From: Spirochaetales bacterium
GTDB lineage: Bacteria; Spirochaetota; Spirochaetia; DSM-2461
DNA length: 32,176 nt
Direction of reading: 5' to 3'
Assembly: GCA_028532905.1 (NCBI GenBank)
Contig: JAQQAM010000098.1
Span: forward strand, 1 to 32,176
Shown here piece after piece: positions 11,293 through 30,805 of the stretch (position 1 is the first letter of the stretch; every line of letters begins with the position of its first letter). The position numbers were made by a program, and so were the translations under genes. A model generated the notes under the pieces. That model made no database searches, was not told the origin of the DNA, and worked only from the letters and a program-made list of their open reading frames with translations.

Positions 11293-12164
11293 TTGATTCC
11301 AAACTGGCCGCCCGGCTGGAGCGGATCCGAGTCCTCACAAGAAGAAAGATAACAGCCGCCTTTGCAGGAGATTATCTGTCAGCCTTCAAGGGAAGGGGGA
11401 TGGAGTTCGAGGAGGTCCGTCCCTATCAGCCGGGAGATGAAGTGAAATTCATTGACTGGAATGTGACCGCCCGGAGTTCAGAACCCTATGTCAAGGTGTA
11501 CAGGGAGGAGCGGGAGCTGTCCATGATGCTGCTTCTGGACCTGTCTCCCTCCGGTCTGTTCTCATCTCAGGAAAAGAGTAAGAACCAGCTGGCGGCTGAG
11601 CTCTGTGCCATGCTGGCCTATACGGCCGTTTCCAATCAGGACCGGGTGGGTCTGGCTGTTCTCACAGATTATGTTGAGAAAGTCATTCCCCCGGCCAGAG
11701 GGAACCGCCATGTGATGCATCTGATCCGGGATGTTCTCACCTATGAACCGGAAGGGTCCGCTACATCCATCAGTGCCGCCCTGGAGTATGTGAACAATAT
11801 TCTCAAGAAAAAAAGCATTCTCTTTCTTATTTCCGATTTTCATGATGAGGGTTATGAGCACCATCTGGCAGCGGCAGCCGAAAAGCATGACCTAGTGTGT
11901 ATACAGCTACTTGATCCCCGGGAGGAAAAGGCTCCGGACAGAGGTCTGTACCGCTTCAAAGATCCTGAAACCGGCAGCACCAGGCTGTATGACGGCCGAA
12001 GTCCCCGGTCCAGAAAGGTGTGGGAAGATCTTTATAGAATCCGTCAGGATCGTCTCAGGAAAATGATGCACGAAAAAGGAGCCGATTTTCTGACCCTCCA
12101 CGCTGGTGAAGACTGGGTGCTCCCCTTGAGCCGTTTCTTTATGAAAAGAGGGGGCCTGATTTGA
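11289..12164 (+). CDS. DUF58 protein of the bat cluster
   Basis: A 291-residue cytosolic protein. The DUF58 signature is plain: GRGMEFEEVRPYQPGDEVKF followed by IDWN (residues 35-58), then AR and EPYVK. DLSPS (Asp84, Ser86, Ser88) forms a DxSxS metal-site motif, so it has a von Willebrand-like fold with a possibly intact MIDAS. FLISDFHDEGYE gives the later part of the same fold. It is normally the partner of MoxR. It overlaps moxR by 4 nt and the next gene by 4 nt. Confidence 0.93.
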   Translation: MIDSKLAARLERIRVLTRRKITAAFAGDYLSAFKGRGMEFEEVRPYQPGDEVKFIDWNVTARSSEPYVKVYREERELSMMLLLDLSPSGLFSSQEKSKNQLAAELCAMLAYTAVSNQDRVGLAVLTDYVEKVIPPARGNRHVMHLIRDVLTYEPEGSATSISAALEYVNNILKKKSILFLISDFHDEGYEHHLAAAAEKHDLVCIQLLDPREEKAPDRGLYRFKDPETGSTRLYDGRSPRSRKVWEDLYRIRQDRLRKMMHEKGADFLTLHAGEDWVLPLSRFFMKRGGLI

Positions 12165-13072: not shown

Positions 13073-14088
13073 TCCGCTTTGAATCTCCCTTCTATTTTGC
13101 ATTGATCCTTGTTATTCCTCTGCTCATCTATCTGCAAAGGCGCTCCCGGCCGGCACTCATATATCCGAGCCTCAAGACTCTGCCTTTTGTTAAAAGCATT
13201 AGAATCAGGCTTTTCTTTTTCAGGGATCTGTTTTTCTATCTGGCTGTTCTGACAATGATCACAGCTCTGGCCGGCCCTTATACCATACTGGGTGAAGAAA
13301 AAGACTACAGCAGGGGATATATGCTGCAACTCGTGGTCGACCGGAGCGGCAGTATGGGCAGCTTTATGGATAAAAAGGGAGAATCAAACCGTCTGGATGT
13401 AGTTAAATCCGTTCTGGATGATTTTATCAACGGAAACGGTTCTTCCCTGGAAGGGCGGGGCAGTGACCGGATCGGATTGATTACATTTGCCCTGTATGCC
13501 GATACCATGGCGCCCCTGACTGTCAGCCACGGCATTGTTACAGAACTGCTGTCTACAGTCTCCCTTGCCCGGGAGGAGGAAGACGGAACGGCCATAGGCG
13601 ATGCCCTGGCTCTGGCGGTTGCCAGGCTGACGGCCTATCAGCAGAAAGCGGGAATCGATTCATCCGGTTCGGTCATCATTCTTTTGACAGACGGACAGAA
13701 TAACAGCGGCTCTGTCGACCCTGAAGAGGCCGCCGAAATGGCAGCCCGTTATGGGATCAAAGTGTATACCATCGGTTTCGGGGGAGGGTATTACAGGAAT
13801 GCCTTCGGTTTGATCCGGGAAATTCCTCCGGAATACGGAATTGATGAAGTGACCCTGCAGGCCATTGCCGAGACAACCGGGGGAGCCTACTTCAACGCCG
13901 GGGATGAAAAATCACTGGCCGCTGTCTACAGGGAAATTGACCGGCTTGAAAAAGTGGATACCCAGGAACTGAGGAGTACGGAAAAAAAGCTCTATTTTGA
14001 AATCCTGTTGAAGCTCTCTCTGATCCTGCTTCTGGCGGGCGGGATCAGCAGGTACCTGTTTCTGAATCTGGTAGAGGGGGAAGGATGA
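13069..14088 (+). CDS. batA: BatA, von Willebrand factor A-domain membrane protein
   Basis: A 339-residue inner-membrane protein. It opens with the Bat N-terminal segment (FESPFYFALILVIPLLIYLQ), a second span at about 52-72, then a vWA domain and a last span at about 305-330. The MIDAS is complete: Asp91-x-Ser93-x-Ser95 (DRSGSM), Thr174 (DGTAIGDAL) and Asp208 (LTDGQNN). The family was linked to aerotolerance in Bacteroides and to stress or virulence in Leptospira and Borrelia. Likely ligand binding through a divalent metal at the MIDAS. AAGAGGGGGG lies just before the ATG; 4-nt overlaps at both ends. Confidence 0.93.
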   Translation: MIRFESPFYFALILVIPLLIYLQRRSRPALIYPSLKTLPFVKSIRIRLFFFRDLFFYLAVLTMITALAGPYTILGEEKDYSRGYMLQLVVDRSGSMGSFMDKKGESNRLDVVKSVLDDFINGNGSSLEGRGSDRIGLITFALYADTMAPLTVSHGIVTELLSTVSLAREEEDGTAIGDALALAVARLTAYQQKAGIDSSGSVIILLTDGQNNSGSVDPEEAAEMAARYGIKVYTIGFGGGYYRNAFGLIREIPPEYGIDEVTLQAIAETTGGAYFNAGDEKSLAAVYREIDRLEKVDTQELRSTEKKLYFEILLKLSLILLLAGGISRYLFLNLVEGEG

Positions 14089-15101
14089 GTTTTCTGAATC
14101 CCGGAGCCCTTCTGTGGGGGTTGCCGGCAATAGTCATACTGGCACTGTATCTGACGGGTAAGATCAGAGGAAGACGGTACACTGTTCTCATGAGGGGAAA
14201 ATCGGCTTCCCGAAGGGGCGGCTCTCTCCGGTCTGTCCTTGTTCCCGTATTCCTGTCCTTCTCTTTCCTGTTTCTCATTGTCGCGGTGATGCGTCCTGTG
14301 TCCAATCCAAGACTCAAGAGCGTGGAACAGTCCGGCAGGAATCTGGTCTTTGTGGTGGATGTGTCCCGCAGTATGCTGGCGGAAGATCTTGTTCCCAACA
14401 GGCTGGAACGGGCCAAATATGATATCCTCAATTCCATACAAAGCCTGTCAGGAAACCGTGTCGCCCTGGTCGCCTTTGCAGGCAATCCTGTCCTGAAGTG
14501 TCCTCTGACTCTGGATTACAGTTATTTTTCCCAGGCTGTTTCTGATCTGGGACCGGCCAGCGTAAGCCGGGGAGGAACAAACCTGGGAGATGCTGTACGC
14601 ATTGTAATGGATGACCTCTTTGACCCGGAAGACAGGCAGTCTATGGATATTATTCTGATTACCGACGGAGAAGATCAGGAAAGTTTTCCCCTTCAATCTG
14701 CAGCCAGAGCCGGTCAGGCGGGTGTCCGGATTATTGCCCTGGGTCTGGGAAATCAGAAAGACGGAGCGGCCGTACCAGATGAGGAAGGGACTCTGGAATA
14801 TCAGAATGAACCGGTCTATTCCAGGGCCGATATGGATACATTGAATAAAATGGCCGCTGCCTCAAGGGACGGATGGGCTGTGGCTGTGGAAAGCGGCCGT
14901 CTGCCCCTTGACTCCCTTCTGTTCCGGCTGAACAGAAAAGGTGAAAATACAAGTACAGGGACTGCAGATCAATACCTGTATGATGAGCATTACAGATGGG
15001 CACTGCTGCCGGGAGTCCTCTTTTTTCTTCTCTACCTTCTCGCTGAAAATACGGCTTTCTTTTCCGGTGAAAAGCAGGGCAGCAGGAGGAGGAAGGCATG
15101 A
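14085..15101 (+). CDS. batB: BatB, von Willebrand factor A-domain membrane protein
   Basis: A 338-residue paralogue of BatA with the same layout: spans near residues 5-22, 52-72 and 300-320 around one vWA domain. MIDAS residues are Asp92, Ser94 and Ser96 (DVSRSM), Thr165 (GGTNLGDAV) and Asp194 (ITDGED). DVSRSM with LAEDLVPNRLERAK is the usual BatB reading. GAGGGGGAAGG precedes the ATG directly. It probably pairs with BatA in the membrane; 4-nt overlaps on both sides. Confidence 0.93.
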   Translation: MSFLNPGALLWGLPAIVILALYLTGKIRGRRYTVLMRGKSASRRGGSLRSVLVPVFLSFSFLFLIVAVMRPVSNPRLKSVEQSGRNLVFVVDVSRSMLAEDLVPNRLERAKYDILNSIQSLSGNRVALVAFAGNPVLKCPLTLDYSYFSQAVSDLGPASVSRGGTNLGDAVRIVMDDLFDPEDRQSMDIILITDGEDQESFPLQSAARAGQAGVRIIALGLGNQKDGAAVPDEEGTLEYQNEPVYSRADMDTLNKMAAASRDGWAVAVESGRLPLDSLLFRLNRKGENTSTGTADQYLYDEHYRWALLPGVLFFLLYLLAENTAFFSGEKQGSRRRKA

Positions 15102-16009
15102 AAACCTCTTTTATGGTTTCTCTGACTAAGATCCTTTGTCTGGTGATTCTGACCCTGTCCTTTTCAGTTCCCGCCCTTCAGGCTCAGGCCGCCGGGGCAG
15201 CCGCCTCCGGGACAGATCCGACAGAAACAGAGGGAGGCGATTTGAATACCCCTGCCGGTTTATATGCTGCGGGACAGTACACTGAGGCCGCCCGTCTCTA
15301 TCTGGAAACATCGGGCAGACAGAAAGTCCCCTCCTATTACAACGCCGCCCGATGCTATCATCAGGATTATGTGGAGAACAGCAATATTGAATCCCTTGCC
15401 GCCGCCGTTGACGGTTACTTCAGAGTTCTGGATCTGGACCCTGCCCATCCTCAGGCTCTGAGGAATCTGGAGCTTGCCAGAAGGGAACTGGAGCAGTATG
15501 AATCAGACAATCAGAAGAATGAGTCCCCTGACAGTCAGAGTGATCAGAAGGAATCACAGAACAAGGATCAGTCAGAGGGGGCGGACAATAAGATGAGCTC
15601 TGATGATCTGAACAATCTGGCGGAAGAACAGGAAAAGCTGGCAGATTCAGCAGGAAAGGAACAGAACCGGCAGGATCAGTCTGAACTGACAGAAAAGACT
15701 GAACAAGCCGCCTCCCGAGCCGGGGAAGAGAGTCCGGAAAAAGATACTCTGGACCGGGCTGTTGAAAAACAGAAGGAAGCCCTGGAGAAAATGGATCAGG
15801 GAGACAGCGGGGCTGCAGCTCAGGCACAGAAGGAAGCGGCCTCTTTACTCAGAGAAGCGGCCCGGCAGGCGGAACAGTTAGAATCGGAAACAGAAGATGA
15901 GGGCGACCCCCTGCCCGAGGATATACAGTCTGTATTAAACCGGGAGCAGGCGAGAAACCGGGACAGACAGAATACAGAGGACGTGATTAGAGTGGAGCGA
16001 GACTGGTGA
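15098..16009 (+). CDS. batC: BatC-like TPR protein with long charged tail
   Basis: A 303-residue exported protein. A signal peptide covers residues 1-30 (cleavage near ALQAQA). TPR-like helices occupy about 50-125 (AGQYTEAARLYLE; GYFRVLDLDPAHPQALRNLE). Residues 130-303 are rich in Gln, Asn, Glu, Ser and Asp, with heptad-like Glu/Lys/Ala stretches (EEQEKLADSAGKEQ, KQKEALEKMDQ), so largely disordered or coiled coil. This matches BatC, the periplasmic TPR partner of BatA/BatB. AGGAGGAGGAAGG gives a very strong ribosome site. Confidence 0.85.
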   Translation: MKTSFMVSLTKILCLVILTLSFSVPALQAQAAGAAASGTDPTETEGGDLNTPAGLYAAGQYTEAARLYLETSGRQKVPSYYNAARCYHQDYVENSNIESLAAAVDGYFRVLDLDPAHPQALRNLELARRELEQYESDNQKNESPDSQSDQKESQNKDQSEGADNKMSSDDLNNLAEEQEKLADSAGKEQNRQDQSELTEKTEQAASRAGEESPEKDTLDRAVEKQKEALEKMDQGDSGAAAQAQKEAASLLREAARQAEQLESETEDEGDPLPEDIQSVLNREQARNRDRQNTEDVIRVERDW

Positions 16010-17706
16010 AGCACAGAACAGTACTATTCCTGATTTTATTCATCTCATTTCAGAGGCTGTGGGCTTCAGACCTGCAGGTTTTTCTGGACAGTTCTGAAAG
16101 TTATGTGGGCCTTCCCCTGCAGCTGACGATGCAGATCAGCAGCAGCAAAGCGGTTGACCGTCCGGATCTGGGGTCCATTCCCGGTTTTCAGATTACCAGT
16201 GCCGGAGAGTCCAGATTTGAGCAGCGCTCATTGGGCAGCGGCGGCAGCAGTCGGACGGTGACCATGGAATACAGCTGGCGGCTTCTTCCCCTGAAAACAG
16301 GAAACCTCAGTATCCCGTCATTTGAGATGGATCTGGAAGACGGAACATACAGAACAGAAGTCATACAAGTCCTGATCAGAGAACCCGGTCCGGTGGAAGG
16401 ATATCACCTTTTTCTCAGTGCCGGGGGAGATACTGCTTTTCCGGATATTCCTGTCCGCCTTACCCTGAAATGGCTCTTTTCTTCCGAAGTGAGCCGACCG
16501 GATTTTACACTTCCCTTTCTGAATCAGACCAATCTCAGGGTGGAGGATCTTCCCCCGCCGCCATCGGGCAGTGCGGATATCTATAAATTTTCTGTGGAGG
16601 GACGTACCGTGTATGCTGTTCAGTCTGCAGAAATCTATGAAGGGGAGCAGTATGCTTCCCTCAGTATGGAGTGGAATATATACCCCGGGGAGGCAGGACC
16701 CCTGGAACTGGAGCCGGTCTTTCTCTCTTTTCAGCGCTCTGTACTGGACAGCCGGGGAAGAAAAACCTATGCCCCGGCGGTGATTCCCTCCAATGCTCTG
16801 GGTCTTGAAGTGAATGAACTGCCCCGGGCCTTGAGCCGTTTTCCGGGAGGTGTCCTTGTGGCTGAGGAAGACCTGGATATACGCATTGAACTGAATCAGA
16901 CGAGAATATACCCCGGAGATCCTGTTGAAGCCTCAGTTCTTATAAGCGGACTGAGCAGCCCTGCCCTGACAGACTTTGCCGGATTATCTGTTCTGGATGA
17001 ACTGAGAGGGAACATCCGGGTGGAACGAGGCAGTCTGATCAGTGAAGTGAAAGGAAAGACACTTGTTCTCAATGAAACCGTCCGAATTGAACAGGATACA
17101 CTCAGTGAATTCCCGTCTTTAAAAATACCATACTACAGCCTTTCCGAAGGGAAGGTGAAAGAGGCTGTGAGTCCTGCTGTTCCATTGACTGTTCTTTCTC
17201 TGGAAGAGAATCCGGCGCTATTATTTTCCCCATCCGCTGAGCCGGAAGACTCCGGGGAGATATTCCCCGGGATGATCAGCTTAAGAGGCAACCGCAGTCT
17301 GGTGACACAAAAACTCTCGTTCTCTTTCCAGTCCCTGAAATGGTTCATACTCTTTTTCTTCACCGCATCGGCCGTTCTGCTTCTGCTGCCGCCCATGGCC
17401 GGTCTGTTCAGAACCTTCCGTTTCGGAAAAAGAGAAGCGGATATTCGAACAACTCTTAAACGGAGCATAGGGGATTATGAAAAAAAACCGGGCAGAGAAA
17501 CGGGACAGATCCTGCTGGAGCATTTGACGGCCTGGCAGCCGGTGAGCACTCAGTCTGACGGTTGGTATCAGGAGCTGATGGGGCTATTGGAAAACAGTCT
17601 CTGGAATGCACATCAGGATGATTCAGCATCCGACAGGGAGCGGATATTAACCATTCTCAATGAGAACCTTGTCAGATCACTGCGCAAAAAGAAGGAAAGA
17701 CCATGA
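16006..17706 (+). CDS. batD: BatD, oxygen-tolerance-type envelope protein
   Basis: A 566-residue protein with a signal peptide (residues 1-20, ending LWAS) and tandem beta-sandwich repeats. The first contains VGLPLQLTMQISSSKAVDRP and the family pattern in which PDLGSIPGFQI is followed by SRTVTMEYSWRLLPLKTGNL and SIPSF. A second repeat starts near 285 (LNQTRIYPGDPVEASVLI). One membrane span lies at about 443-465, then a cytoplasmic tail of about 100 residues. This is the BatD layout. It starts at GTG, in the 4-nt GTGA overlap with batC, with GGAG 8 nt upstream. Confidence 0.9.
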   Translation: MKHRTVLFLILFISFQRLWASDLQVFLDSSESYVGLPLQLTMQISSSKAVDRPDLGSIPGFQITSAGESRFEQRSLGSGGSSRTVTMEYSWRLLPLKTGNLSIPSFEMDLEDGTYRTEVIQVLIREPGPVEGYHLFLSAGGDTAFPDIPVRLTLKWLFSSEVSRPDFTLPFLNQTNLRVEDLPPPPSGSADIYKFSVEGRTVYAVQSAEIYEGEQYASLSMEWNIYPGEAGPLELEPVFLSFQRSVLDSRGRKTYAPAVIPSNALGLEVNELPRALSRFPGGVLVAEEDLDIRIELNQTRIYPGDPVEASVLISGLSSPALTDFAGLSVLDELRGNIRVERGSLISEVKGKTLVLNETVRIEQDTLSEFPSLKIPYYSLSEGKVKEAVSPAVPLTVLSLEENPALLFSPSAEPEDSGEIFPGMISLRGNRSLVTQKLSFSFQSLKWFILFFFTASAVLLLLPPMAGLFRTFRFGKREADIRTTLKRSIGDYEKKPGRETGQILLEHLTAWQPVSTQSDGWYQELMGLLENSLWNAHQDDSASDRERILTILNENLVRSLRKKKERP

Positions 17707-18470
17707 AAAAAGTGATGTACCTGTTTCTGGTTCTTGTATTGCATTTACCTCTTTATGCCCGCACGGTAACGACGGGAAATGAGCTGTTCAGGCAGGCTCT
17801 CTCGGGAGAAGAGAGTTTTGATGCGGCTGCTGCCGATTATGTGCGTTTAATCAATGAAGGGGAAACAGATCTCTTTTCTCTTTACTATAATCTGGGAAAC
17901 ACACTGTACCTGGCGGATGATCCCGTTGCCGCTCTGGCTGCCTACGGAGCCGCCCTTAAGCTCAAGCCCTCGGATGAGGACTGTATTGCCAACAGAAATC
18001 TGGTCTTAGGAGAGCTGGAACTGGAAGCTCCCGTACCCGATGCCGCCGGTTCTTTCCTCCATGGACCTGTACTGCTGTTTGGTGTGAAGGCTGCAGGAGT
18101 CATCCTGTTGTTTCTGACGGTATCTGCCTTTGGGGCTGCCCTTCTTTTTCTGATAGTAAAAAAGCCGGTTTTCAGAACTATCTCGGTAATCCTTCTTGTC
18201 CTGTCCCTGCTTATGTCCGGCTCCCTGTTCAGCTGGAATCCAAATCCGGCTGTCATTGCACAGGACAACACCGCCCTCAGACGGGGAGACAGTCCCCTTT
18301 ATGAGCCGTTGGCCGTTCTGCAAGCAGGAACCTCCATCCATATCATTGAAGAGCGGAAGGGCTGGTTTCGGGTCAAAACCGGGAAAACGGCGTCCTCTGT
18401 GAGTCAGACCGGCTGGATTCAGGATACCCAGATGATTGATATTCAGAAGCTTATTGATCGTTATCAGTAA
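17703..18470 (+). CDS. batE: BatE-like TPR/SH3 membrane protein
   Basis: A 255-residue envelope protein: signal peptide (1-19), TPR-type helices (about 55-105, YYNLGNTLYLADDPVAALAAY), two membrane spans (about 125-150 and 157-177), then a bacterial SH3-like domain (about 195-245: LYEPLAVLQAGTSIHIIEERKG, WFRVK, GWIQ). TPR plus SH3 at the end of a bat cluster is the BatE layout. AAGGAAAG precedes the ATG, which overlaps batD by 4 nt. It is the last gene with a 4-nt overlap; the next gene is 76 nt away. Confidence 0.85.
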   Translation: MKKVMYLFLVLVLHLPLYARTVTTGNELFRQALSGEESFDAAAADYVRLINEGETDLFSLYYNLGNTLYLADDPVAALAAYGAALKLKPSDEDCIANRNLVLGELELEAPVPDAAGSFLHGPVLLFGVKAAGVILLFLTVSAFGAALLFLIVKKPVFRTISVILLVLSLLMSGSLFSWNPNPAVIAQDNTALRRGDSPLYEPLAVLQAGTSIHIIEERKGWFRVKTGKTASSVSQTGWIQDTQMIDIQKLIDRYQ

Positions 18471-18999: not shown

Positions 19000-20718
19000 T
19001 TATTGGTCAGGGAGGGATGTAAACGCATCCTCAAGGATGGAAAAACTCAGAACTTCCGGGAGAATCTTAACCTCTTCTCCGGGAAGGTACACGAGATAAA
19101 GGGGCACTCCCGCACGGTTCTGGCTGTAAATCCATTCCATGGCCTCCTCATTGCTGACGGTAATATCCCCTTTAACAGTCCTGATGCCTTTGGATGCAAA
19201 AAGATCTTTGGCCCTGTCGGTATTCAGAACTGTTCGCTCATTGACCTTGCAGCTGGTGCACCATTCGGCAGAAAAGATAAGAAAAAGGGGCTCTCCCTCA
19301 TCTATAATGCTGTTCACCTCATCAGGATCAAACTGTTCCCAGTAGGATGAGCTGTTAACAGTCACCCCGGATTCGGAATCATCGAAGACCAGCAGATACC
19401 GGGCAGATCCGAGAATCAGCAAAAGAGGAAGAATCCTGAAGATGCGGCGCCAGAGTTTCTTACGGCTCTGTCTGCTGCTCCATCCCCATATCCAGGCAGC
19501 CAGAGACAGAACCAGCAGGAACCACAGAACAGAACCGAATGGAGGTCCAATCTGTTTTATAAGAGTCGAAGAGAGGTAGATGACCGTTCCCATAAGGAGA
19601 AATGCCATAAACTCTCTGAACTTATCCATCCATTTGCCGGGTTTGGGAAGGATTCTGAAAAATCCGGGGAAAAATCCCAGAAGAAGAAAGGGGAGGGACA
19701 GTCCCAGGCCTGTGAGAGTCATGATCAGGAAGATGACCAGTGCCGACTGGGAAAAAGCGAAGCCCATGGCACTTCCCAGAAAGGGGGCTGTACAGGGGGT
19801 GGCAACAAATACGGCAAAAATCCCCGTAAAGAAGGAACCGGCATACCCTTTCTTCCTTGACAGGGAGTCTGCCTTGTTCATTCCTCCGGTGGGAGGCAGA
19901 AGAATAAATACTTCAAACAGGGAGAGGGCAAACAGAAAAATGACCGAGATCAGAACGGTCAGAAAAAGAGGACTCTGGAAGTGGAAACCCCATCCCAGAA
20001 GCTTTCCCGACTGCTGCAGCAGAATGATCACAAGAGACAAAGCCCAGAAGGAGACCAGAATTCCTGCGGTGTAGAGAAAACCGTGTTTGATCAGGACGGG
20101 CCGTTTCTCTCCGCTCTGGCTGATCAGGTTCATGGCTTTTACCGAGAGTAAGGGTAGTACACAGGGCATCAGATTCAGAAGAAAACCTCCTGCCAGTGCC
20201 ATCAGAAGGAACAGCCAGAGAGTCCCCCCCTCCTGTGACTGTACAGGGTCGCCAGTTATATCCAGAGTCACCAGGAGCTCGGTACGACCTGGAAAATAAC
20301 AGATACCCTCATCATCACAGAGCTGAAAATGGGCATTGATAATCATTTCACTGCTGCCCTGTGTCATAGTATCGGATACCAGGAGTTCCAGAACCAGTTC
20401 CGCAGAGTCGTAATATTGTATATCTCCATTACTGTCTACTTTCCCCTCGGGGAAAACAGTGGTTCCGAAAAGAATTCCCTTATCTCCTGTTCCCTCCAGA
20501 TAAAACTGCTCCGGATTGTGAGTCTGATGATAGCCTGGAGGGAAGGTATACAATACCTTTACCGAGGCTGTTTCACCGGGTCTGTAGCTTTCTTTGTCCA
20601 GGGAAACTCTGATCTCCGGATCCGGCGGAGCCGATGCACCGGGCAGGGAAATCTGAGAAAAAACCGGTACTGTTAAAAAGAGGTAAAATAGACTTTTAAG
20701 TAATAGTGTTTTATTCAT
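19000..20718 (-). CDS. dsbD: Thiol:disulfide interchange protein DsbD
   Basis: A 572-residue inner-membrane protein that carries reducing power from cytosolic thioredoxin to the periplasm. All three DsbD modules are seen. The periplasmic alpha domain has Cys134 and Cys140 (QLCDDEGICYF). An eight-span membrane domain has Cys186 (NLMPCVLPLL) and Cys309 (VATPCTAPFLG). The C-terminal thioredoxin domain has Cys487-x-x-Cys490 (AEWCTSCK). A signal peptide covers about residues 1-21. I choose the ATG at 20716-20718 because the signal peptide starts there; a TTG 36 nt upstream keeps the frame open but adds a poor leader. No ribosome site is visible, and the predicted promoter puts the transcript start within a base or two of the ATG. 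Confidence 0.95.
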   Translation of the reverse strand: MNKTLLLKSLFYLFLTVPVFSQISLPGASAPPDPEIRVSLDKESYRPGETASVKVLYTFPPGYHQTHNPEQFYLEGTGDKGILFGTTVFPEGKVDSNGDIQYYDSAELVLELLVSDTMTQGSSEMIINAHFQLCDDEGICYFPGRTELLVTLDITGDPVQSQEGGTLWLFLLMALAGGFLLNLMPCVLPLLSVKAMNLISQSGEKRPVLIKHGFLYTAGILVSFWALSLVIILLQQSGKLLGWGFHFQSPLFLTVLISVIFLFALSLFEVFILLPPTGGMNKADSLSRKKGYAGSFFTGIFAVFVATPCTAPFLGSAMGFAFSQSALVIFLIMTLTGLGLSLPFLLLGFFPGFFRILPKPGKWMDKFREFMAFLLMGTVIYLSSTLIKQIGPPFGSVLWFLLVLSLAAWIWGWSSRQSRKKLWRRIFRILPLLLILGSARYLLVFDDSESGVTVNSSSYWEQFDPDEVNSIIDEGEPLFLIFSAEWCTSCKVNERTVLNTDRAKDLFASKGIRTVKGDITVSNEEAMEWIYSQNRAGVPLYLVYLPGEEVKILPEVLSFSILEDAFTSLPDQ

Positions 20719-20729
20719 ATATATGAATA
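20712..20729. repeat. 18-bp perfect palindrome over the dsbD start codon
   Basis: TATTCATATATATGAATA is a perfect palindrome. It covers the dsbD ATG (20716-20718), the expected transcription start and part of the -10 box. A repressor bound there would block dsbD. AT-rich alternation could also produce it by chance. Confidence 0.45.
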
Positions 20730-20754
20730 TAATTAACTCTGTATTGAAAATCAA
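20726..20754 (-). promoter_or_regulatory. Predicted dsbD promoter, near-leaderless
   Basis: On the minus strand TTGATT (20754-20749) and TATATT (20731-20726) are 17 bp apart. The start of transcription would be about 20719-20720, next to the ATG at 20718, so the mRNA would have almost no leader. This fits the missing Shine-Dalgarno sequence. Confidence 0.5.
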
Positions 20755-20756
20755 TA

Positions 20757-20785
20757 TTGACCTATGGGCGTAAGGCTGTTAAATT
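20757..20785 (+). promoter_or_regulatory. Predicted promoter of the NDK-like gene
   Basis: TTGACC (20757-20762) and TAAATT (20780-20785) with a 17-bp spacer, divergent from the dsbD promoter with only 2 bp between the two -35 boxes. Transcription would start near 20792, 35 nt before the ATG. Confidence 0.45.
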
Positions 20786-20826
20786 AGGCTTTATTATTAA
20801 TGAAAGAAGGTTAGAAAAAACGAAAA

Positions 20827-22023
20827 ATGGCTGAAGAACTGTCATACATTCTGATCACCCCCTATACCATTGTTAAATCCAGAACGGGCGGTGTGCTCTC
20901 CAGACTCCTGTCGAGAGTTGATCTGGAGCTTGTGGGAACACAGATTTTTGCTCCCTCTCAGGAACTGGCTGAAGCATATGCGGCATCACTGTATAAACAG
21001 TCTGTCGATACGAATTCATCCAGTCCCAAACTTCTCAGCGACTTTGTCCTGAAAACATTCTCCCCATCCAACGGACGCAGACACCGGGTCATGATGCTGC
21101 TGTTCAAAGGAGAGGATGCCTGTAGAAAATTATCAGATATTGCAGGAGCTCTGTATCCTGAAAACAGAAGTATCGAGTCCATAACCGGTGAAACAATCCG
21201 TGACACCTACGCCGATCTTGTGAAAGATCAGGATGGAAACATTGTGTACTTTGAGCCCGCCGTTATGACTCCCCGGACTCAGGAAACGGCCACTCAGAAT
21301 ATGAAGATATTTGCCCCTTTTATCAGCAATGAACCGAATATTGTTGAGAATATGGCTTATCCTGCCAATGCCAAAATTGAAAGAACCCTGGTCATCATCA
21401 AACCGGATAACTGGAAATATGCCAGTTCCAGACCGGGAACCATTATCGATATGTTCAGCAGAACCGGTCTGCGTCTTATCGGCTGTAAAAAATATCAGAT
21501 GACTGTTTCGGAAGCCCTTGAGTTTTACGGTCCTGTAAGGGATGCCCTTATTTCCAAACTGGGACCCATGTTCGGTGCCCGTGCCAAGGTCGTTCTGGAA
21601 AAAGAATTCGGTCTGCCCCTGTCTATCGATATGGATAAGATCCTCTCCGACAGTTTTGGAAAGGAATACGCTGTCGACCAGTTCAACAAGATCGTGGAGT
21701 TCATGTCCGGTACCAGACCCGATAAGTGTCCCGAAGAGGAAATGGATTCACCGGGTAAGGTGAAATGTATGGTTCTTATCTATGAAGGTGTAGATGCTGT
21801 ACAGAAAATCCGTGATGTCCTCGGACCGACGGATCCCACTAAAGCCCCTGGAGGAACAATCCGCAGGGAGTTCGGCCATGATGTTATGGTGAATACAGCC
21901 CATGCTTCTGATTCTCCCGAGAATGCAGAAAGAGAAATGGGAATTGTCAGAATCCAGAACAACCGCTGCGGTAAAATCCTGAGAGAGCATATCGGGATGA
22001 GCCACGAGGATGTGGGCAGGTAA
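20827..22023 (+). CDS. Two-domain nucleoside-diphosphate-kinase-like protein, first domain degenerate
   Basis: A 398-residue cytosolic protein, against about 140 for ordinary Ndk. Residues about 185-398 are an NDK domain: RTLVIIKPDNW with the nucleotide Lys, then VLGPTDPTKAPGGTIRREFG and NTAHASDSPENAEREM with the phospho-acceptor His359. This domain has an insertion of about 60 residues (about 240-300) between its two halves. Residues 1-165 follow the same pattern (YILITPYTIV, GVLSRLLSRVDLELVGTQIF, VMMLLFKGEDACRKLSDIAG), but the Lys is replaced by Thr and the His position by Tyr141 (NIVYFEP). The first copy is probably a regulatory pseudo-domain. It may still transfer phosphate between nucleotides through domain two. 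AGAAGG is about 16 nt from the ATG, a poor ribosome site. Confidence 0.82.
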   Translation: MAEELSYILITPYTIVKSRTGGVLSRLLSRVDLELVGTQIFAPSQELAEAYAASLYKQSVDTNSSSPKLLSDFVLKTFSPSNGRRHRVMMLLFKGEDACRKLSDIAGALYPENRSIESITGETIRDTYADLVKDQDGNIVYFEPAVMTPRTQETATQNMKIFAPFISNEPNIVENMAYPANAKIERTLVIIKPDNWKYASSRPGTIIDMFSRTGLRLIGCKKYQMTVSEALEFYGPVRDALISKLGPMFGARAKVVLEKEFGLPLSIDMDKILSDSFGKEYAVDQFNKIVEFMSGTRPDKCPEEEMDSPGKVKCMVLIYEGVDAVQKIRDVLGPTDPTKAPGGTIRREFGHDVMVNTAHASDSPENAEREMGIVRIQNNRCGKILREHIGMSHEDVGR

Positions 22024-22032
22024 TAATACCGG

Positions 22033-22068
22033 AAAAAAAACAGGGGCTGAAGTCAATTTCAGCCCCTG
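22033..22068. terminator. Terminator between the NDK-like gene and lysC, strongest for lysC
   Basis: CAGGGGCTGAA (22041-22051) pairs perfectly with TTCAGCCCCTG (22058-22068) around a 6-nt loop. On the minus strand it is followed by eight T (A8 at 22033-22040 on the plus strand), a strong terminator for lysC. On the plus strand the tail TCTATTTATAAT is only moderately T-rich. Confidence 0.85.
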
Positions 22069-22132
22069 TCTATTTATAATCCTTCGTCAATTGTATAAAT
22101 CATCTCTCCCTGCCGGGAGTCATCCCGATCAC

Positions 22133-23470
22133 TCAGCCCAGAAAAGCATCATGAAGGGTCTGAATTGTACTGTCGGTTTTATCCTGGGGGACAACCACCG
22201 ACAGATTGATATCTGAAGATCCCAGAGAAATCATTCTCACAGGAGTATCTTTCAGCGAGGCGAATACTTTTGATATAAAGCCTGAATCCTTCCACAGATC
22301 CTGACCGACCATGCAGATAATGCTCTTGTCCTGTTCAACAGAGACATTGGCTATTTCTGATATCTCCTCTGTTATGGTTTCCAGGGAATCTGCATTCTCT
22401 ATGGTGATGGAAACAGATACTTCTGATGTGGAAATCAGATCAACAGGTGTCTTGTGTTTTTCAAAAATACCAAATATCCGGCTCAGGAATCCATAGGCAT
22501 TCAGCATTTTCGAAGAGTTGATGTTGATCAGGGTAATTCCTTTTTTAGAGGCAATCGCCTTCAGTCCGGTACCGCTGAGTTTATGTTCAATGGTTGTGCC
22601 CGGATGGGAAGGATCTCCTGTATTTTTTACAAGAACAGGGATTTTATTGCCCACTGCAGGCTGAATTGTTGCCGGATGAACAACCTTGGCTCCGAAGTAG
22701 GCCAGCTCTCCCGCTTCTGCATAGGTAATGGAATCAATGGTTTTTACTCCTTTTACGAAGCGGGGGTCAGAACTCATAATCCCGTTGACATCGGTCCAGA
22801 TCTGAATCTCTTCCGCACCGAGTGCCGCTCCGATGATGGCTGCAGAATAATCGCTCCCGCCGCGGCCCAGTGTGGTGGTGACGCCGTTTTCGGTTGCCGC
22901 AATAAAACCCTGGGTCACAATTAGTTTTCCTTTCTCCGGTTTTACCTTGTTCCGGATCAGGTCAAGGGTTTCTTCCATTCTGGGAGACGCGGAGTTGAAG
23001 TTTTCATCTGTGAGCATAAAGGTTCTGGCATCAAGGAGGGAGGCGTCCATATTCCGTTCCAGAGCTCTGTGGGTAATAATGGTAGTGGACAGTCGCTCTC
23101 CGAATGAGAGAAGGGCATCCCGGCTTCTGGGAGAACATTCTCTTAACAGGGACAATCCTTTTAAAAAGGCGATAAAATCCGAGAACAGTTCATTCAGTTT
23201 CTGTTCACATTCTTTAAGATTCTCAGCGCTGAGAAAGGAATAGGCTGCCTGAAGATGGATATTTTTCAGTTCTTCAAAAGGAGGGAAGGATTCTTCCATT
23301 CTTCCCGATTCTGCAAGGTCTATGAGCTCAAGAATGCAGTCTGTTGTTTTTCCCATAGCAGAAGACACCAGTACGGGAGCTTTATCCAGCTGGGATTCAG
23401 CTATACTGAGAGCTTTATCAATCCAGATATTATCCTGTACGGAGGTTCCGCCGAATTTCATTACTACCAT
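22133..23470 (-). CDS. lysC: Aspartate kinase
   Basis: Makes beta-aspartyl phosphate from aspartate and ATP, the first step towards lysine, threonine, methionine and diaminopimelate. Length 445, in the range of monofunctional class III enzymes. KFGGTS (residues 5-10) begins the kinase fold. LLSFGERLST, TQGFIA, TLGRGGSDYSAA, IQIWTDVNGIMSSDPR, and AEAGELAYFGAKVVHPAT follow in the usual order. Two ACT domains fill the C-terminus (from about 300: ITLININSSKMLNAYGFL; then IICMVGQDLW with VRMISLGSSDINLSVVV), so feedback control is expected. AAAGGA lies 10 nt before the chosen ATG; a second ATG three codons later is possible. No homoserine dehydrogenase domain or asd neighbour is present. Confidence 0.95.
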   Translation of the reverse strand: MVVMKFGGTSVQDNIWIDKALSIAESQLDKAPVLVSSAMGKTTDCILELIDLAESGRMEESFPPFEELKNIHLQAAYSFLSAENLKECEQKLNELFSDFIAFLKGLSLLRECSPRSRDALLSFGERLSTTIITHRALERNMDASLLDARTFMLTDENFNSASPRMEETLDLIRNKVKPEKGKLIVTQGFIAATENGVTTTLGRGGSDYSAAIIGAALGAEEIQIWTDVNGIMSSDPRFVKGVKTIDSITYAEAGELAYFGAKVVHPATIQPAVGNKIPVLVKNTGDPSHPGTTIEHKLSGTGLKAIASKKGITLININSSKMLNAYGFLSRIFGIFEKHKTPVDLISTSEVSVSITIENADSLETITEEISEIANVSVEQDKSIICMVGQDLWKDSGFISKVFASLKDTPVRMISLGSSDINLSVVVPQDKTDSTIQTLHDAFLG

Positions 23471-26358: not shown

Positions 26359-28374
26359 ATGTCAATAAATCAGAGTAAAATGAATCAAGTATTTAATGTT
26401 CAAGTTACAAGCTTTTGGTATAATGATTTATCAATGAAAAAAGGGACTGCATCAGAATCGGGAAAATTATACGATAATATTTTCAAAGACCTCAATTTTT
26501 CATCGACTCTCGTATTGGGAGCCGTAGTTGTTGTTTTGTATCTGATCTCCCTGTATATGCCTGATCTCGGACGGTCCCTGATACTGGGCTGGGTCATTCT
26601 GAGTGCCTGGACCATCATGGTGTTTACCGGGAGAACCAATCATTTTTACGGTTCGGCTCTGCTGACCATGGCTTCTTATGTTTTTTTCTCCGCTGTGTCC
26701 CTGTATATCATGTATCTGGTGAGTTACGAACAGAGATTTTTCTTTGATCAGAATATGACCGTACAATTCTGGCTGGGTGCTTCTTTTGTTGAGACCCTGG
26801 GAATGGCTCTCATTCTTGTTCTGTACCTGAAAAGACTTCCTGTTTCTTTCGCAGTGCCCGTTTGTATTATTCTTTCACTCGGTACGATTGCTCTGATCGC
26901 AAGCGGATACTACCCGGCCTGTATCAGTGTGGATGGGGATTTCACGGCCTTTATGAAATTCTCTTCCATTACAGTGGCCGCATTATATTTGACGGGACTC
27001 TATTATCTGTTCCGGTCTATTCGGAAATCCTTCCAGTTTTCAGAATTACTGATGTCTCTGACTATGCTTTTATCCACCTTATCCACTCTGGTGTTTGTCT
27101 TTGGTAAGGGGGAATCCGTTTCTGTGATTGCCTATATTCTCAAGGCTCTGGCCTATCACAGCCTCTACAGAGGTGTTTTTCTGGAAGCCGTACTCAAACC
27201 CATAGAGACTCTGAAGAAAACTGAATCTGAACTGAGGCGGGAGGAGTTTTTCTACAGACAGACTCTGACAGCCGTCAATGAGGGAATGTTCCGTTATTAT
27301 GCAGACCGGGGCATTCTGGAGGTCTCATCAGTATGGGAAGTTATGACAGGCCATTTCAGAAAGGATTATGAGAGCAGTCTGGATTACTTCAACCGTCAGT
27401 TTGCCGAGAAGGACAGAAAAGAGATTATCAGATCCATGAGAAAGGCGATTAAAGATGGATCAATCCTCAACGGAGAGTATCAGGTCTGCCGGAAAAACGG
27501 CGACACCATGTGGATTCTCATGCGTGCCCGCATGGGCTCTGATCAGGAAGGCAGACCCTGTCTGATCGGAATGATGAGCGATATTACCCACAGTAAGGCC
27601 ATCGAAAAGGAACTGATCGAAGCCAAGGAGAAAGCGGAAGAGAGCAACAGGCTGAAGACCAGTTTCCTTGCCAATATTTCCCATGAGATCAGAACACCCC
27701 TGAATGTTATACTGGGCTTTACAGGCCTTCTTGTAAAGGATCTGCCCGAGGATGAGAACAGTGAGGAAAGGCAGAAGTTTGTTGAACTGATCAGGCAGAG
27801 TTCCAATCAGCTGATCACCATCATTTCCAATATTATTGATATTTCCAGAATACAGAATGAAAGCATTGATCTTCAGGTTCAGAAGCTTCCTGTCAGAGAC
27901 TTTTTCCAGAATTTATACACCGTATACAGAAAACTGATGGATGACAGAGTGAAAAAGGAAATCCGCTTGAACTGGAGTTATCCCGACCATATGCCGGATT
28001 ATATTTTTCTGAATACGGATATTGAACGCTTTCATCAGATCTGGCAGAATCTGCTGAACAATGCCATGAAGTTTATTGAATACGGACAGATCTCCTATGG
28101 AGTCCACTCCTTTGATCCGGAAGAGGGAAAAATCGTTTTTTTTGTTGAAGATACAGGTCCCGGTATTTCATCAGGAAAGGATCAGATTATTTTTGAACGC
28201 TTCAGACAGGGGGAAGAGGGCCTGGCCAGGCGCTACGGCGGCAGCGGACTGGGCCTGAGTATCTGCCGGGAACTTCTGCAGCAGATGAAAGGAGACATAT
28301 ACCTGGACAAAGAATACAGCGGAGGAGCCCGTTTTCTCTTTTCCCTCCCGGAGTACGGTAATGATTCCAACTGA
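26359..28374 (+). CDS. Sensor histidine kinase with MASE3-like membrane domain and PAS domain
   Basis: A 671-residue inner-membrane kinase. Residues about 50-270 hold seven or eight spans resembling the MASE3 sensor (YLISLYMPD; GYYPACISVDGDFTAFMKF; ILKALAYHSLYRGVFLEAVLKP). A PAS domain is at about 291-412 (NEGMFRYYADRG; GEYQVCRKNGDTMWILMRA). The HisKA domain has phospho-acceptor His442 (SHEIRTPLN). The HATPase domain has NLLNNAMKF (564 on), DTGPGI and YGGSGLGLSIC (about 625-635). There is no receiver domain and no adjacent response regulator. The start is uncertain: ATG 26359 has GGTG upstream, but the first 25 residues are AT-rich and unusual, and a TATAAT at 26419-26424 suggests the ATG at 26434. 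It overlaps the next gene by 14 nt. Confidence 0.9.
   Translation: MSINQSKMNQVFNVQVTSFWYNDLSMKKGTASESGKLYDNIFKDLNFSSTLVLGAVVVVLYLISLYMPDLGRSLILGWVILSAWTIMVFTGRTNHFYGSALLTMASYVFFSAVSLYIMYLVSYEQRFFFDQNMTVQFWLGASFVETLGMALILVLYLKRLPVSFAVPVCIILSLGTIALIASGYYPACISVDGDFTAFMKFSSITVAALYLTGLYYLFRSIRKSFQFSELLMSLTMLLSTLSTLVFVFGKGESVSVIAYILKALAYHSLYRGVFLEAVLKPIETLKKTESELRREEFFYRQTLTAVNEGMFRYYADRGILEVSSVWEVMTGHFRKDYESSLDYFNRQFAEKDRKEIIRSMRKAIKDGSILNGEYQVCRKNGDTMWILMRARMGSDQEGRPCLIGMMSDITHSKAIEKELIEAKEKAEESNRLKTSFLANISHEIRTPLNVILGFTGLLVKDLPEDENSEERQKFVELIRQSSNQLITIISNIIDISRIQNESIDLQVQKLPVRDFFQNLYTVYRKLMDDRVKKEIRLNWSYPDHMPDYIFLNTDIERFHQIWQNLLNNAMKFIEYGQISYGVHSFDPEEGKIVFFVEDTGPGISSGKDQIIFERFRQGEEGLARRYGGSGLGLSICRELLQQMKGDIYLDKEYSGGARFLFSLPEYGNDSN
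26419..26424 (+). promoter_or_regulatory. Perfect -10 box inside the 5' end of the kinase gene
   Basis: TATAAT, preceded by TTTTGG, with only a poor -35 (TGTTCA at 26397-26402, 16 bp away). If used, transcription would begin near 26431, about 3 nt before the ATG at 26434, giving a near-leaderless mRNA and a 646-residue kinase. Confidence 0.35.
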
Positions 28375-30805
28375 TTTTACAGGCCGATTTGCACTTGATG
28401 TGCATGAACGGATGCTGAGAGATATTGAAGAGGCTGAAGGCAATGAAGTTCTCTGGGTGGGATCAATCAATGAGGATAAAGTTGTCTCCTCTGTAAAAAC
28501 CGCAGCCCGGGGACATGAAAGTGCTGTTCCTGCTGTTATGGAGCATATGGAGAAGGGAGATGTGGTCATCCACAACCACCCGTCAGGTGTTCTCAAGCCC
28601 AGTGATGCCGATTTATCCCAGGCCTCCCTGCTTGGGAACCAGGGAATCGGTTTTTATATTGTCAATAATTCTGTGGATGCCGTGTATGTGGTGGTGGAAC
28701 CGGTACTGTACAGCCCGGATGTTCTTCTGGATACACATGATCTGTGTTCCATTCTGTCTCCCGGCGGACCACTTTCAGAAATAGATCCCCATTATGAGGA
28801 GCGACCTTCCCAGATAGAACTTCTGGAAACCATAACAAATGGTTTCAATGATGAGAAAATTGTTGTGGCCGAAGCGGGAACGGGAGTCGGCAAATCCTTC
28901 TCTTATCTGATTCCGGCACTCAAGTGGGCGGATGCCAATGAACAGAGAGTTGTTATTTCTACGGCGACCATCAATCTGCAGCAGCAGATCATGGAGAAGG
29001 ATCTGCCTCTGGCACAGACACTCAGTGGTACGGATGTAAAGGCTGTTCTTGTGAAGGGGAGACGGAACTATCTGTGTAAAAACAGGCTGGCCGATGCCCT
29101 TGAGGAAAATTCTCTGTTCAGGGAGAAGAGCGATCTTCTGCTGCAGATAAAGGAATGGGGGGAGAGCAGTCCCACCGGAACAGTTTCGGAACTTCCCTTT
29201 CTGCCCCCCGATGAGCTCTGGTCCCGGGTCTGCAGTGATGCGGACAGCTGTTTCGGAGCCCGCTGCCGTTATTTTGAAAATTGTTTTGTCATGAAATCCA
29301 GAAGGGAAGCCGCTGCGGCAGGAGTCCTTGTGGTCAATCATCATATGTTTTTTGCCGATATGTCCCTCCGGATCAGCGGTCTGGGGTTTGACGGGACCGT
29401 TCTCCTTCCTCATTTTCACAAGGTTGTTTTTGATGAGGCTCATAATATTGAAAACAGTGCTACAAGCTATTTTTCCGAGGAATATAACAGAATCCAGCTG
29501 CTGAAATATCTGCAGAGACTGTTTCTGCAGAAAAAGGGCCGGTCCATCGGTGTGCTCATTCGTCTGGAAGCCATTCAGGAAGCACCCGAGGGGGTTCTGT
29601 TTTCCGAGCTGCTCCGGGATCTCAGATCCCAGGCGGAAATTCTGGATGCCCTGGCTTTTGATTTCTTTCCCGGAGAAACCTCTGTGAGACTCCAGGACAA
29701 TAGCCATCCCGATTATCTGCGGAAAATCAGAGAGCCCCTTCTTCTCACCAGAGAAAAGCTGGCTCAGTTTATAGCCTACCTCAACAAATGGTACGATCTG
29801 ATTCCTGAAGAAGAACAGGAGAATACTGTGGTTCTTGAGTTCAAGATGATACTCAGCAGGTTGAACGGATATTCGGTCTTTCTCAATAAGTTCAGCCAGT
29901 TTGATGCAGAAGATGATGAGGGTGTTTTCTGGATTGAAAAGAAGGTGAGAGATGGCAAATCCTATGTCCGTTTTCTCATTACACCCCTGGAGATCTCGGG
30001 CTGGATGAAATCAGGAATCTACGACTCCTACAGCTCCGCCGTTTTCACCTCGGCTACCCTGACCATGGATAACAGTTTCCGGTACTGGCAAAAGAGGATG
30101 GGGTTGGATTCCCAGCTCCCTGAGCGGGTTCAAAGCGGCCGTTTTGCCTCTCCCTTCCCCTATAAAGATAATGTTCTTCTAGGGCTGCCTGACGATATTC
30201 CCGAGCCCAATGCCCCTGAATACAGGGAGGTGTTGCGGGATTCAATCAAAAAACTGCTGGAGAGCAATGAAGGAAGGGCACTTGTTCTGTTTACATCCTA
30301 CGAACTGCTGAAGTTCTGCTACGACGGGATTCTTGAGGACTGGTCTTTTCCGGAAGTGACCCTTCTCAGGCAGGGCAGTGAAGACAGAGGAAGGCTCTTA
30401 AAACACTTTACAGAGGATGTTCAAAGCGTTCTGTTTGCCACCGACTCCTTCTGGGAGGGAGTGGATACGCCGGGGGAATCTCTGAGGCTGGTGATTCTCT
30501 GCAAGCTTCCCTTCCGGGTACCCACAGACCCCGTTTATCAGGCCAGGCTTGAGGCTGTGGAGAAAAGGGGAGGCAATTCATTCCGGGAACTGTCTCTTCC
30601 TGAAGCGGTTATGAAATTCCGGCAGGGATTCGGACGGCTTATGAGACGGAAAACAGACCGGGGAGCCGTAATTATTCTGGACTCCCGTATTGTGAGTAAA
30701 AATTACGGTTCCGTCTTTCTCCGCTCTCTTCCCCAAACCATTGAGTCAAGGAAACGTTTTGTCTCTGTTCTGGAAGATATGGAGAATTTTATCTATGAAA
30801 ATTGA
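28361..30805 (+). CDS. DinG/XPD-family helicase with N-terminal JAMM (RadC-like) domain
   Basis: An 814-residue protein. Residues 1-120 are a JAB1/MPN-type domain: Glu29, then His71-x-His73-(7)-Ser81-x-x-Asp84 in IHNHPSGVLKPSDAD, the zinc-binding JAMM pattern as in RadC. The rest is a superfamily 2 helicase of the DinG/XPD type: Walker A GTGVGKS (173-179), an iron-sulfur cysteine set Cys291, Cys297, Cys302 and Cys308, DEAH (358-361), NHHMFFAD, and motif VI QGFGRLMRR (about 755-763). It should unwind damaged or structured DNA in the 5'-3' direction, as this family does. E. coli DinG lacks the N-terminal domain; some Gram-positive forms carry an exonuclease there instead. GGAG is 7-8 nt before the ATG, inside the kinase gene. 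Confidence 0.88.
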   Translation: MIPTDFTGRFALDVHERMLRDIEEAEGNEVLWVGSINEDKVVSSVKTAARGHESAVPAVMEHMEKGDVVIHNHPSGVLKPSDADLSQASLLGNQGIGFYIVNNSVDAVYVVVEPVLYSPDVLLDTHDLCSILSPGGPLSEIDPHYEERPSQIELLETITNGFNDEKIVVAEAGTGVGKSFSYLIPALKWADANEQRVVISTATINLQQQIMEKDLPLAQTLSGTDVKAVLVKGRRNYLCKNRLADALEENSLFREKSDLLLQIKEWGESSPTGTVSELPFLPPDELWSRVCSDADSCFGARCRYFENCFVMKSRREAAAAGVLVVNHHMFFADMSLRISGLGFDGTVLLPHFHKVVFDEAHNIENSATSYFSEEYNRIQLLKYLQRLFLQKKGRSIGVLIRLEAIQEAPEGVLFSELLRDLRSQAEILDALAFDFFPGETSVRLQDNSHPDYLRKIREPLLLTREKLAQFIAYLNKWYDLIPEEEQENTVVLEFKMILSRLNGYSVFLNKFSQFDAEDDEGVFWIEKKVRDGKSYVRFLITPLEISGWMKSGIYDSYSSAVFTSATLTMDNSFRYWQKRMGLDSQLPERVQSGRFASPFPYKDNVLLGLPDDIPEPNAPEYREVLRDSIKKLLESNEGRALVLFTSYELLKFCYDGILEDWSFPEVTLLRQGSEDRGRLLKHFTEDVQSVLFATDSFWEGVDTPGESLRLVILCKLPFRVPTDPVYQARLEAVEKRGGNSFRELSLPEAVMKFRQGFGRLMRRKTDRGAVIILDSRIVSKNYGSVFLRSLPQTIESRKRFVSVLEDMENFIYEN

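Follow-up and report, generated by a model that had tools for sequence, protein, structure and literature searches.

The tandem NDK gene and its surroundings

The window, i.e., the whole stretch of 32,176 nucleotides analysed here from a Spirochaetales bacterium (contig JAQQAM010000098.1 of assembly GCA_028532905.1), harbors on the plus strand at 20827-22023 a real open reading frame (ORF) of 398 residues with an ATG start, which encodes two nucleoside-diphosphate kinase (NDP kinase, NDK) domains, hereafter D1 and D2 of the tandem NDK. The Pfam NDK profile PF00334 matches the whole protein with an E-value of 1.1e-32 and 113.2 bits, passing the Pfam cut-off of 27 bits, and at E<=1 nothing but NDK, and in particular no DM10 domain, is found in Pfam. 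The NCBIfam equivalog cut-off for ordinary bacterial NDK is not reached (106.5 bits vs 155 for NF001908), and the protein falls even further under the cut-offs of the other NCBIfam NDK models listed. A full-length AlphaFold2 model was obtained with a pLDDT of 88.2 and a pTM of 0.86, the latter lending some confidence to the predicted position of one domain relative to the other. The gene and the signals predicted around it are as follows:

20757..20785, plus strand: predicted sigma-70-like promoter, TTGACC-17-TAAATT, with TG ahead of the second hexamer (pattern match)
20827..22023, plus strand: tandem NDK gene, 398 residues, pseudo-NDK D1 followed by NDK D2 (ORF, PF00334, AlphaFold2 model)
22038..22071, both strands: terminator-like hairpin between the tandem NDK gene and the convergent aspartokinase-like gene (pattern match)

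Within 20600-22300, seven sigma-70-like matches are present compared with 3.2 (sd 2.0) in shuffles, and the terminator-like hairpins amount to two matches compared with 1.5 (sd 1.2). The upstream neighbor is a divergent DsbD-like gene, and the downstream neighbor is a convergent amino-acid-kinase/ACT gene, aspartokinase-like by our reading. In 80 loci plus the window, analysed with a crude ORF caller, no operon partner constant across the tandem NDK family was found. The neighbors are lineage-specific, their domain names resting on one example each: one Sphaerochaeta-type group has an isochorismatase-domain gene upstream in 13 loci, at a distance of 31-90 bp, a class I/II aminotransferase gene lies 11-254 bp downstream on the same strand in nine Lentisphaerota/Verrucomicrobiota loci (L052, L053, L054, L060, L064, L297, L299, L302 and L303), and 9 of 10 Planctomycetota loci have a metallo-beta-lactamase-fold gene downstream (at no more than 16 bp in seven of them, at 103 and 1864 bp in the other two). 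In the Planctomycetota loci L287-L295, a GyrA-like gene comes after the tandem NDK in eight and a DnaE-like gene before it in six, both labels coming from a reading of the sequence rather than from a profile search. A mobile-element origin was rejected, as no match to the tandem NDK at E<=1e-10 was found among 72,556 plasmid and 50,697 phage records.

Elsewhere in the window, 28361-30805 encodes a helicase, by our reading DinG-like, with an N-terminal RadC/JAB-like stretch (HNHPSG; PF04002 at 21.4 bits, cut-off 22.1), and a run of MoxR-type AAA, DUF58, two VWA, BatD and TPR genes at 10312-18470 is presumably a Bat-type operon. A short minus-strand protein at 25829-26242 matches the FliG C-terminal domain (PF01706, 38.4 bits), and the protein encoded at 4340-6532 combines metallo-beta-lactamase-fold and cyclic-nucleotide-binding domains and has a weak match to the anti-Pycsar Apyc1 (22.5 bits, cut-off 50).

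Conservation and structure of the two domains

Relatives at E<=1e-15 were taken as family members. The conservation alignments comprised 82 non-redundant members, with partial matches such as L034, L079, L091 and L095 left out, then 120 and finally 180 rows (179 unique), i.e., the first 82 plus 77 more from Verrucomicrobiota/Lentisphaerota and 20 from Planctomycetota, and they cover only some of the 125 Verrucomicrobiota/Lentisphaerota carriers described below. The features of D2 are as follows:

21370..21960, plus strand: D2, residues 182-378, NDK domain with complete active site (PF00334, hhalign, solved NDKs)
21400..21402, plus strand: Lys192, active-site Lys of D2, in IIKPD (179 of 179 relatives)
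21544..21672, plus strand: D2 insert 1, residues 240-282 (43 residues), alphaA-alpha2 region (alignment gap, DSSP)
21715..21762, plus strand: D2 insert 2, residues 297-312 (16 residues) (alignment gap)
21901..21903, plus strand: His359, expected phospho-His of D2 (176 of the 178 relatives with a residue there; two have Gln)

The second half alone matches PF00334 with an E-value of 1.4e-26 (93.4 bits), aligns with canonical NDKs in hhalign at 9.7e-33, and, within the predicted full-length model, matches solved NDKs at Z ~16. All seven NDK pocket residues are present in D2 (K192, Y234, R346, N356, H359, S361 and E370), the set of Lys, Tyr, Arg, Asn, His, Ser and Glu being that listed for M. tuberculosis NDK in an excerpt of PMC7554756. 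Across 179 relatives, K192, Y234, R329, T335, R346, N356, H359, D362 and E370 are 98-100% conserved, the count being 179/179 for K192, Y234, R329 and T335 and 178/178 for R346, N356, D362 and E370, and the pocket is near-invariant in Planctomycetota as well (His in 20/20). The Lys in IIKPD and His359, on which the first-pass annotation had based its view of the second half, are thus both in place. The two tandem NDKs with Gln at 359 are from Lentisphaeria, L060:438-1613 (sheep colon) and L064:6001-7176 (yak cecum); their genomes (G399 and G400) gave no second PF00334 protein, and NDK-less cells or a non-catalytic role are possible explanations.

An insertion of about 60 residues had been proposed for D2. 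Extra residues are indeed found there, but as two blocks of 43 and 16 residues, with 2 more near residue 198. Insert 1 extends the alphaA-alpha2 hairpin, and the model around it shows long helices at 235-261 and 268-294. The stretch 236-285 spans 45-59 residues in 176 of 179 relatives and only 15-17 in three (L182, L183, L184; G433, G582, G694), and since these three are without most of the insert, the helical hairpin is not essential to the family. The stretch around insert 2 is of similar length, 15-22 residues, in all 179 rows. According to an excerpt of PMC7554756, the M. tuberculosis NDK hexamer has one trimer with a remodelled alphaA-alpha2 region and an opened cleft.

The features of D1 are as follows:

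20827..21327, plus strand: D1, residues 1-167, of NDK fold but lacking catalytic Lys and His (hhalign, model Z, PF00334)
20857..20892, plus strand: D1 motif TPYTIVKSRTGG, residues 11-22, with Thr11 in place of the catalytic Lys (179 relatives)
21196..21216, plus strand: D1 motif IRDTYAD, residues 124-130, R125 being the counterpart of the pocket Arg in NDK GTIR (alignment)
21247..21267, plus strand: D1 motif YFEPAV plus Met147, residues 141-147, with the His counterpart at 146/147 (alignment, DSSP)

The first half alone matches PF00334 with an E-value of 1.6e-5 and 25.2-25.5 bits, slightly below the cut-off of 27. Among 56 D1 sequences, 41 match PF00334 at E<=0.01 (best 2.2e-10), and no Pfam family other than NDK is found at that threshold. 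An hhalign comparison of the D1 alignment with 11 ordinary NDKs gives an E-value of 1.3e-8. D1 modelled separately with AlphaFold2 (pLDDT 81.1, pTM 0.79) matches solved NDKs at Z ~13; of the 984 chains aligned, 249 reach Z>=8 and a single further one lies at Z 5-8. RovC_DNA-bd (E 0.12) and BT3441_fam (E 0.013) were rejected as families for the first half, both being non-significant and far below their cut-offs. The first-pass annotation, which had described a pseudo-enzyme/enzyme tandem of two NDK-like halves and would have been refuted by a first half of non-NDK fold or one assigned to another family, is supported here by PF00334, hhalign and the models, the first half being an NDK by both fold and profile.

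The catalytic residues of D1 are lost. Thr11 occupies the position of the NDK catalytic Lys, as had been proposed, whereas the assignment of Tyr141 to the position of the His has to be revised: hhalign sets VVHA of NDK on AVMT (145-148) of D1, and DSSP of the full model places the short strand ahead of helix alpha4 at 146-147 and Tyr141 elsewhere, in a hairpin of its own (130-133/139-143). Tyr141 is thus ruled out by both the alignment and the secondary structure of the model, and the His counterpart is Val146/Met147, column 147 being Leu, Phe, Ile, Met or Val in all 178 relatives with a residue there. In the alignments Arg125 is the only pocket residue of the seven that D1 keeps, and D1 does not by itself qualify as an NDK pocket; Tyr51 is conserved, but it stands one position ahead of the NDK Tyr.

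D1 does, however, carry a signature of its own, TPYxxxKSRTGGxxxR...R125...D130...EPAV, which is near-invariant in 179 distinct relatives from four phyla. Within its first motif, P12 is found in 178 of the 179, K17 in 175 (Arg in the other 4), S18 in 175, R19 in 178, T20 in 173, G21 in 179 and G22 in 167, and position 11 is Thr in 152, Asn in 25 and Ser in 2. R26 (179), R87 (174) and G95 (179) are similarly kept, as are R125 (178/179), D130 (176/179), E143 and P144 (178/178 each) and V146 (173/179). In the 20 Planctomycetota rows, T11, P12, Y13, S18-G22, R26, R87, R125, D130 and F142-A145 all reach 20/20, K17 and V146 19/20 and Y141 15/20; position 126 is Gly in 19 of these rows instead of Asp, and position 30 is mostly Leu instead of Arg. 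Columns with at least 95% conservation in the 179 rows number 19 of 167 in D1 vs 34 of 197 in D2, and the median dN/dS is 0.072 for D1 and 0.054 for D2 (Nei-Gojobori, 26 non-overlapping pairs from 68). The conserved motif and low dN/dS argue that D1 is under purifying selection, and the view of D1 as a decaying copy was rejected on these grounds. The description of the first domain as "dead" therefore holds for NDK catalysis but is otherwise misleading. As D1 keeps near-unchanging residues of its own in distantly related bacteria, this silent half probably still does something important.

When the full-length model was compared with solved structures by VIA, the five best matches were doublet-microtubule chains aligned across both domains, the best being 6u42_5O, i.e., FAP67 (Z 23.8, 274 residues, 3.2 Å); we take the other four to be NME7 counterparts of FAP67. 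Single NDKs rank below these chains, at Z ~16 and with D2 only. In Foldseek, the two-domain microtubule chains give TM scores of 0.46-0.56 (by query length) at 5.4-9.6 Å, and the domain arrangement would therefore be only roughly like theirs. An excerpt of PMC7554756 describes NDK assemblies as dimers joined via beta2 strands and gives the dimer-face residues of the M. tuberculosis enzyme, to which 13 positions of the tandem NDK were matched by number. Of these counterparts, S18, T20, G21 and G22 in D1 and P203, G204, D208 and S211 in D2 are 93-100% conserved, K221 in D2 is 94% conserved and the others vary more. This pattern would fit a putative D1-D2 pseudo-dimer, for which the pTM of 0.86 and the ranking of two-domain chains above single NDKs also speak.

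Carriers, ordinary NDK and origin

Tandem NDK was found in 30 of 392 Spirochaetota genomes sampled and in 125 of 288 genomes of Verrucomicrobiota/Lentisphaerota (the phylum of a Verrucomicrobiota assembly, Lentisphaeria included). A third set of 199 genomes, from the phylum to which a Sedimentisphaerales assembly belongs and which we treat as Planctomycetota, yielded 22 carriers. The 61 named loci come from a single Sedimentisphaerales assembly and from members of Verrucomicrobiota, Spirochaetota and Lentisphaerota. Metagenome assemblies make up the majority, and some of the organism names attached to them, for example Akkermansia muciniphila or Treponema denticola, may be erroneous. The nearest named relatives of the window's protein are from Spirochaetaceae assemblies (77%, L035), and 19 of 20 aligned Planctomycetota rows are 37-43% identical to it. 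G415 (46% identical) and G737 (54%), both counted among the Planctomycetota carriers, are similar to the forms of other phyla and could stem from misbinning or recent transfer. Two copies of tandem NDK are present in L044 (frames at 5985 and 7290, head to tail) and also in G224 and G327. Tandem NDK is thus a family of Verrucomicrobiota, Lentisphaerota, Planctomycetota and part of Spirochaetota, not peculiar to the window's genome.

A search for a separate normal ndk, as suggested by the first-pass annotation, located one in the window's genome (C126:1267-1698, 150.7 bits). The ordinary NDK of this genome and genus (L001, which is G000:C126:1267-1698, L103 and L104) is a long-branch form with an insert before the NxxH motif. 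Every one of the 30 carrier genomes in spirochaetes is at least 92% complete; 10 of them also have an ordinary NDK, the window's genome included, and in 20 no other PF00334 match was found at E<=0.001; for carriers reached via named loci, tandem NDK is the only form in 27 of 29. Across all 392 Spirochaetota, an ordinary NDK was detected in 262 (E<=1e-22). In the 288-genome set, 90 matches were obtained at E<=1e-22; with G582 set aside, where the match is to the tandem protein, this gives 89 genomes with canonical NDK, 125 with tandem NDK and a single one with both (G496), where 38.6 would be expected. Fisher tests give p 1.5e-4 for exclusion in Spirochaetota and 5e-27 in the 288-genome set; these tests ignore shared ancestry, and the completeness figures cover the spirochaete set only. 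In Planctomycetota, canonical NDK is present in 18 of 22 carriers and in 182 of 199 genomes overall.

Because the two forms nearly exclude each other in the 288-genome set and tandem NDK is the only NDK detected in 20 of 30 spirochaete carriers, it probably replaces ordinary NDK in these lineages, although both forms occur together in the window's genome and in 18 of the 22 carriers from Planctomycetota. Replacement in every carrier was rejected, as Planctomycetota carriers mostly keep the canonical gene. At the cut-offs used, 110 of the 392 Spirochaetota genomes and 75 of the 288 in the Verrucomicrobiota/Lentisphaerota set gave neither form, and NDK function is therefore not indispensable.

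A tree of 106 domain rows was built from 36 D1 and 36 D2 (36 chosen tandem proteins) and 34 canonical rows (selected by pattern from 59 loci). D1 forms one group (100/100) and D2 another (97/95), both apart from the canonical rows, with very long branches and a program warning that make the deeper order unsafe. In hhalign, D1 scores 88 against D2 vs 76 against canonical NDKs. Since D1 is slightly nearer to D2, the comparison would favour an internal duplication as the origin of D1 and D2, a question that the long-branched tree cannot settle. The nesting of D1 sequences may suggest, with poor support (fork 81/33), that spirochaetes gained the gene from Lentisphaerota. No stand-alone D1 was found among the family matches apart from contig-end fragments.

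Functional interpretation and comparison with known systems

Taken together, we lean towards the view that tandem NDK is a housekeeping NDP kinase made as a covalent active/inactive pair, i.e., a covalent pseudo-dimer. In such a protein, D2 would make NTPs by the usual ping-pong phospho-His mechanism via His359, as NDK does, with its active-site lid lengthened by the helical hairpin, whereas D1, having given up NDK catalysis, would take the place of the second subunit in the NDK dimer, with the floor of its former active site rebuilt as a conserved surface (TPYxxxKSRTGG, R125, D130 and FEPAV). The analysis establishes the sequence, the homology, the complete D2 site, the constraint on D1 and the distribution; the activity of D2, the packing of the two domains as a pseudo-dimer and a supporting or tuning effect of D1 on D2 are inferred. 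Judged by its distribution, the protein would in the first place have an ordinary role, NTP supply in place of canonical NDK. Against this view stand the carriers that also keep canonical NDK, the genomes with neither form, the two Lentisphaeria members with Gln at 359 and the modest Foldseek scores.

NDK is usually thought unregulated, and ligand control is the main rival to this reading. D1 might be a sensor in which a nucleotide or phosphate-bearing metabolite, bound at the rebuilt former site, switches D2 on or off, in line with the ligand-controlled kinase activity that the first-pass annotation had suggested beside a new role. We regard this as doubtful: the invariant charged residues K17, R19, R26, R87, R125, D130 and E143, several of them placed by the alignment beside the former active-site floor, would suit such a site, as would the retention of the pocket-Arg counterpart R125 in 178 of 179 relatives, and the enlarged D2 lid offers a possible coupling route, yet the same charged residues could equally be structural, Arg125 is the one pocket residue of seven that D1 keeps (Tyr51 being one position off the NDK Tyr), and the gene neighborhoods show no recurrent partner that would point to a signal. 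A fuller version, in which the NDK pocket of D1 has turned into a ligand site (TPYxxxKSRTGGxxxR / R-x4-D / FEPAV) and NTP synthesis answers a nucleotide-like signal via the D2 lid hairpin, is put forward only tentatively; if true, NTP synthesis would have a built-in regulator in a large part of Verrucomicrobiota/Lentisphaerota and in some Planctomycetota and Spirochaetota.

Roles other than NTP synthesis are discussed for some eukaryotic NME proteins, and tandem NDK might likewise serve mainly as a scaffold or protein-His kinase, with NDK chemistry secondary. Its coexistence with the ordinary enzyme (in 18 of 22 carriers from Planctomycetota and 10 of 30 from spirochaetes), the two members with Gln at 359 and the structural likeness to FAP67 speak for such a role; however, the near-invariant D2 pocket, with the His in 20 of 20 Planctomycetota rows, and the near-exclusion of tandem and canonical genes in Verrucomicrobiota/Lentisphaerota make it improbable. 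That D1 has gained a different catalytic activity, making the protein bifunctional, appears very improbable: its conserved mix of Lys, Arg, Asp and Glu is as strict as the catalytic set of D2, but the argument is purely inferential, with NDK the only Pfam assignment in 56 D1 sequences at E<=0.01 and no other active-site pattern recognised. A chance resemblance or a decaying, functionless duplicate, to which the loss of the catalytic Lys and His might point, is scarcely credible given a motif kept over four phyla, a median dN/dS of 0.07, the NDK fold and the lack of any stand-alone D1, contig-end fragments aside, among the matches.

With the covalent active/inactive pair as the preferred reading, the work of NDK appears to be done in a widespread family of bacterial proteins by two fused halves, one of them a pseudo-enzyme with residues of its own that are conserved to the degree of a catalytic site. 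The tandem is the only NDK homologue detected in many genomes of Verrucomicrobiota, Lentisphaerota and spirochaetes, and genomes counted as without canonical ndk may still have NDK function. Tandem NDK also offers a natural experiment on the purpose of the second subunit in the NDK dimer.

In the usual description, canonical NDK assembles from identical subunits, every one of which has a working site. Tandem NDK resembles the canonical bacterial enzyme in the complete site of D2, with 34-38% identity in profile alignments, and in the NDK fold of both domains, and differs from it in the tandem arrangement, the one dead domain, the two inserts, scores below the NCBIfam cut-offs and the separate grouping of D1 and of D2. 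Waddlia chondrophila, according to an excerpt of PMC13318545, has two separate ndk paralogues, WcNdk1 and WcNdk2, both with the HGSD motif; as far as that excerpt goes, it shares with the tandem carriers two ndk copies and the wider Planctomycetes-Verrucomicrobia-Chlamydiae group, but the copies are separate genes rather than a tandem with a dead domain. In the open-licence literature, searched by titles and abstract openings, no description of a bacterial tandem NDK was recognised.

The eukaryotic ciliary microtubule and gamma-tubulin ring protein NME7/FAP67 is the best structural match of tandem NDK across both domains, and like it has two tandem NDK domains, one of them without catalytic residues. 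FAP67 consists of a DM10 domain and two NDK monomers linked by a loop (excerpt of PMC7554756), and in NME7 one NDK domain autophosphorylates and the other is inactive (excerpt of PMC13256974). In NME7, however, the N-terminal DM10 domain is followed by the competent and then the inactive NDK domain, whereas tandem NDK is without DM10 and has the inactive D1 first; it also differs in the lid insert of D2 and in its bacterial hosts. In sequence, FAP67 is no nearer to tandem NDK than single NDKs are (3.8e-14 vs 5.5e-18). Orthology with NME7 is thus unsupported, given the absent DM10, the reversed order and the lack of special sequence closeness. The nearest known architecture is nevertheless that of eukaryotic NME7, in reversed order and minus DM10.
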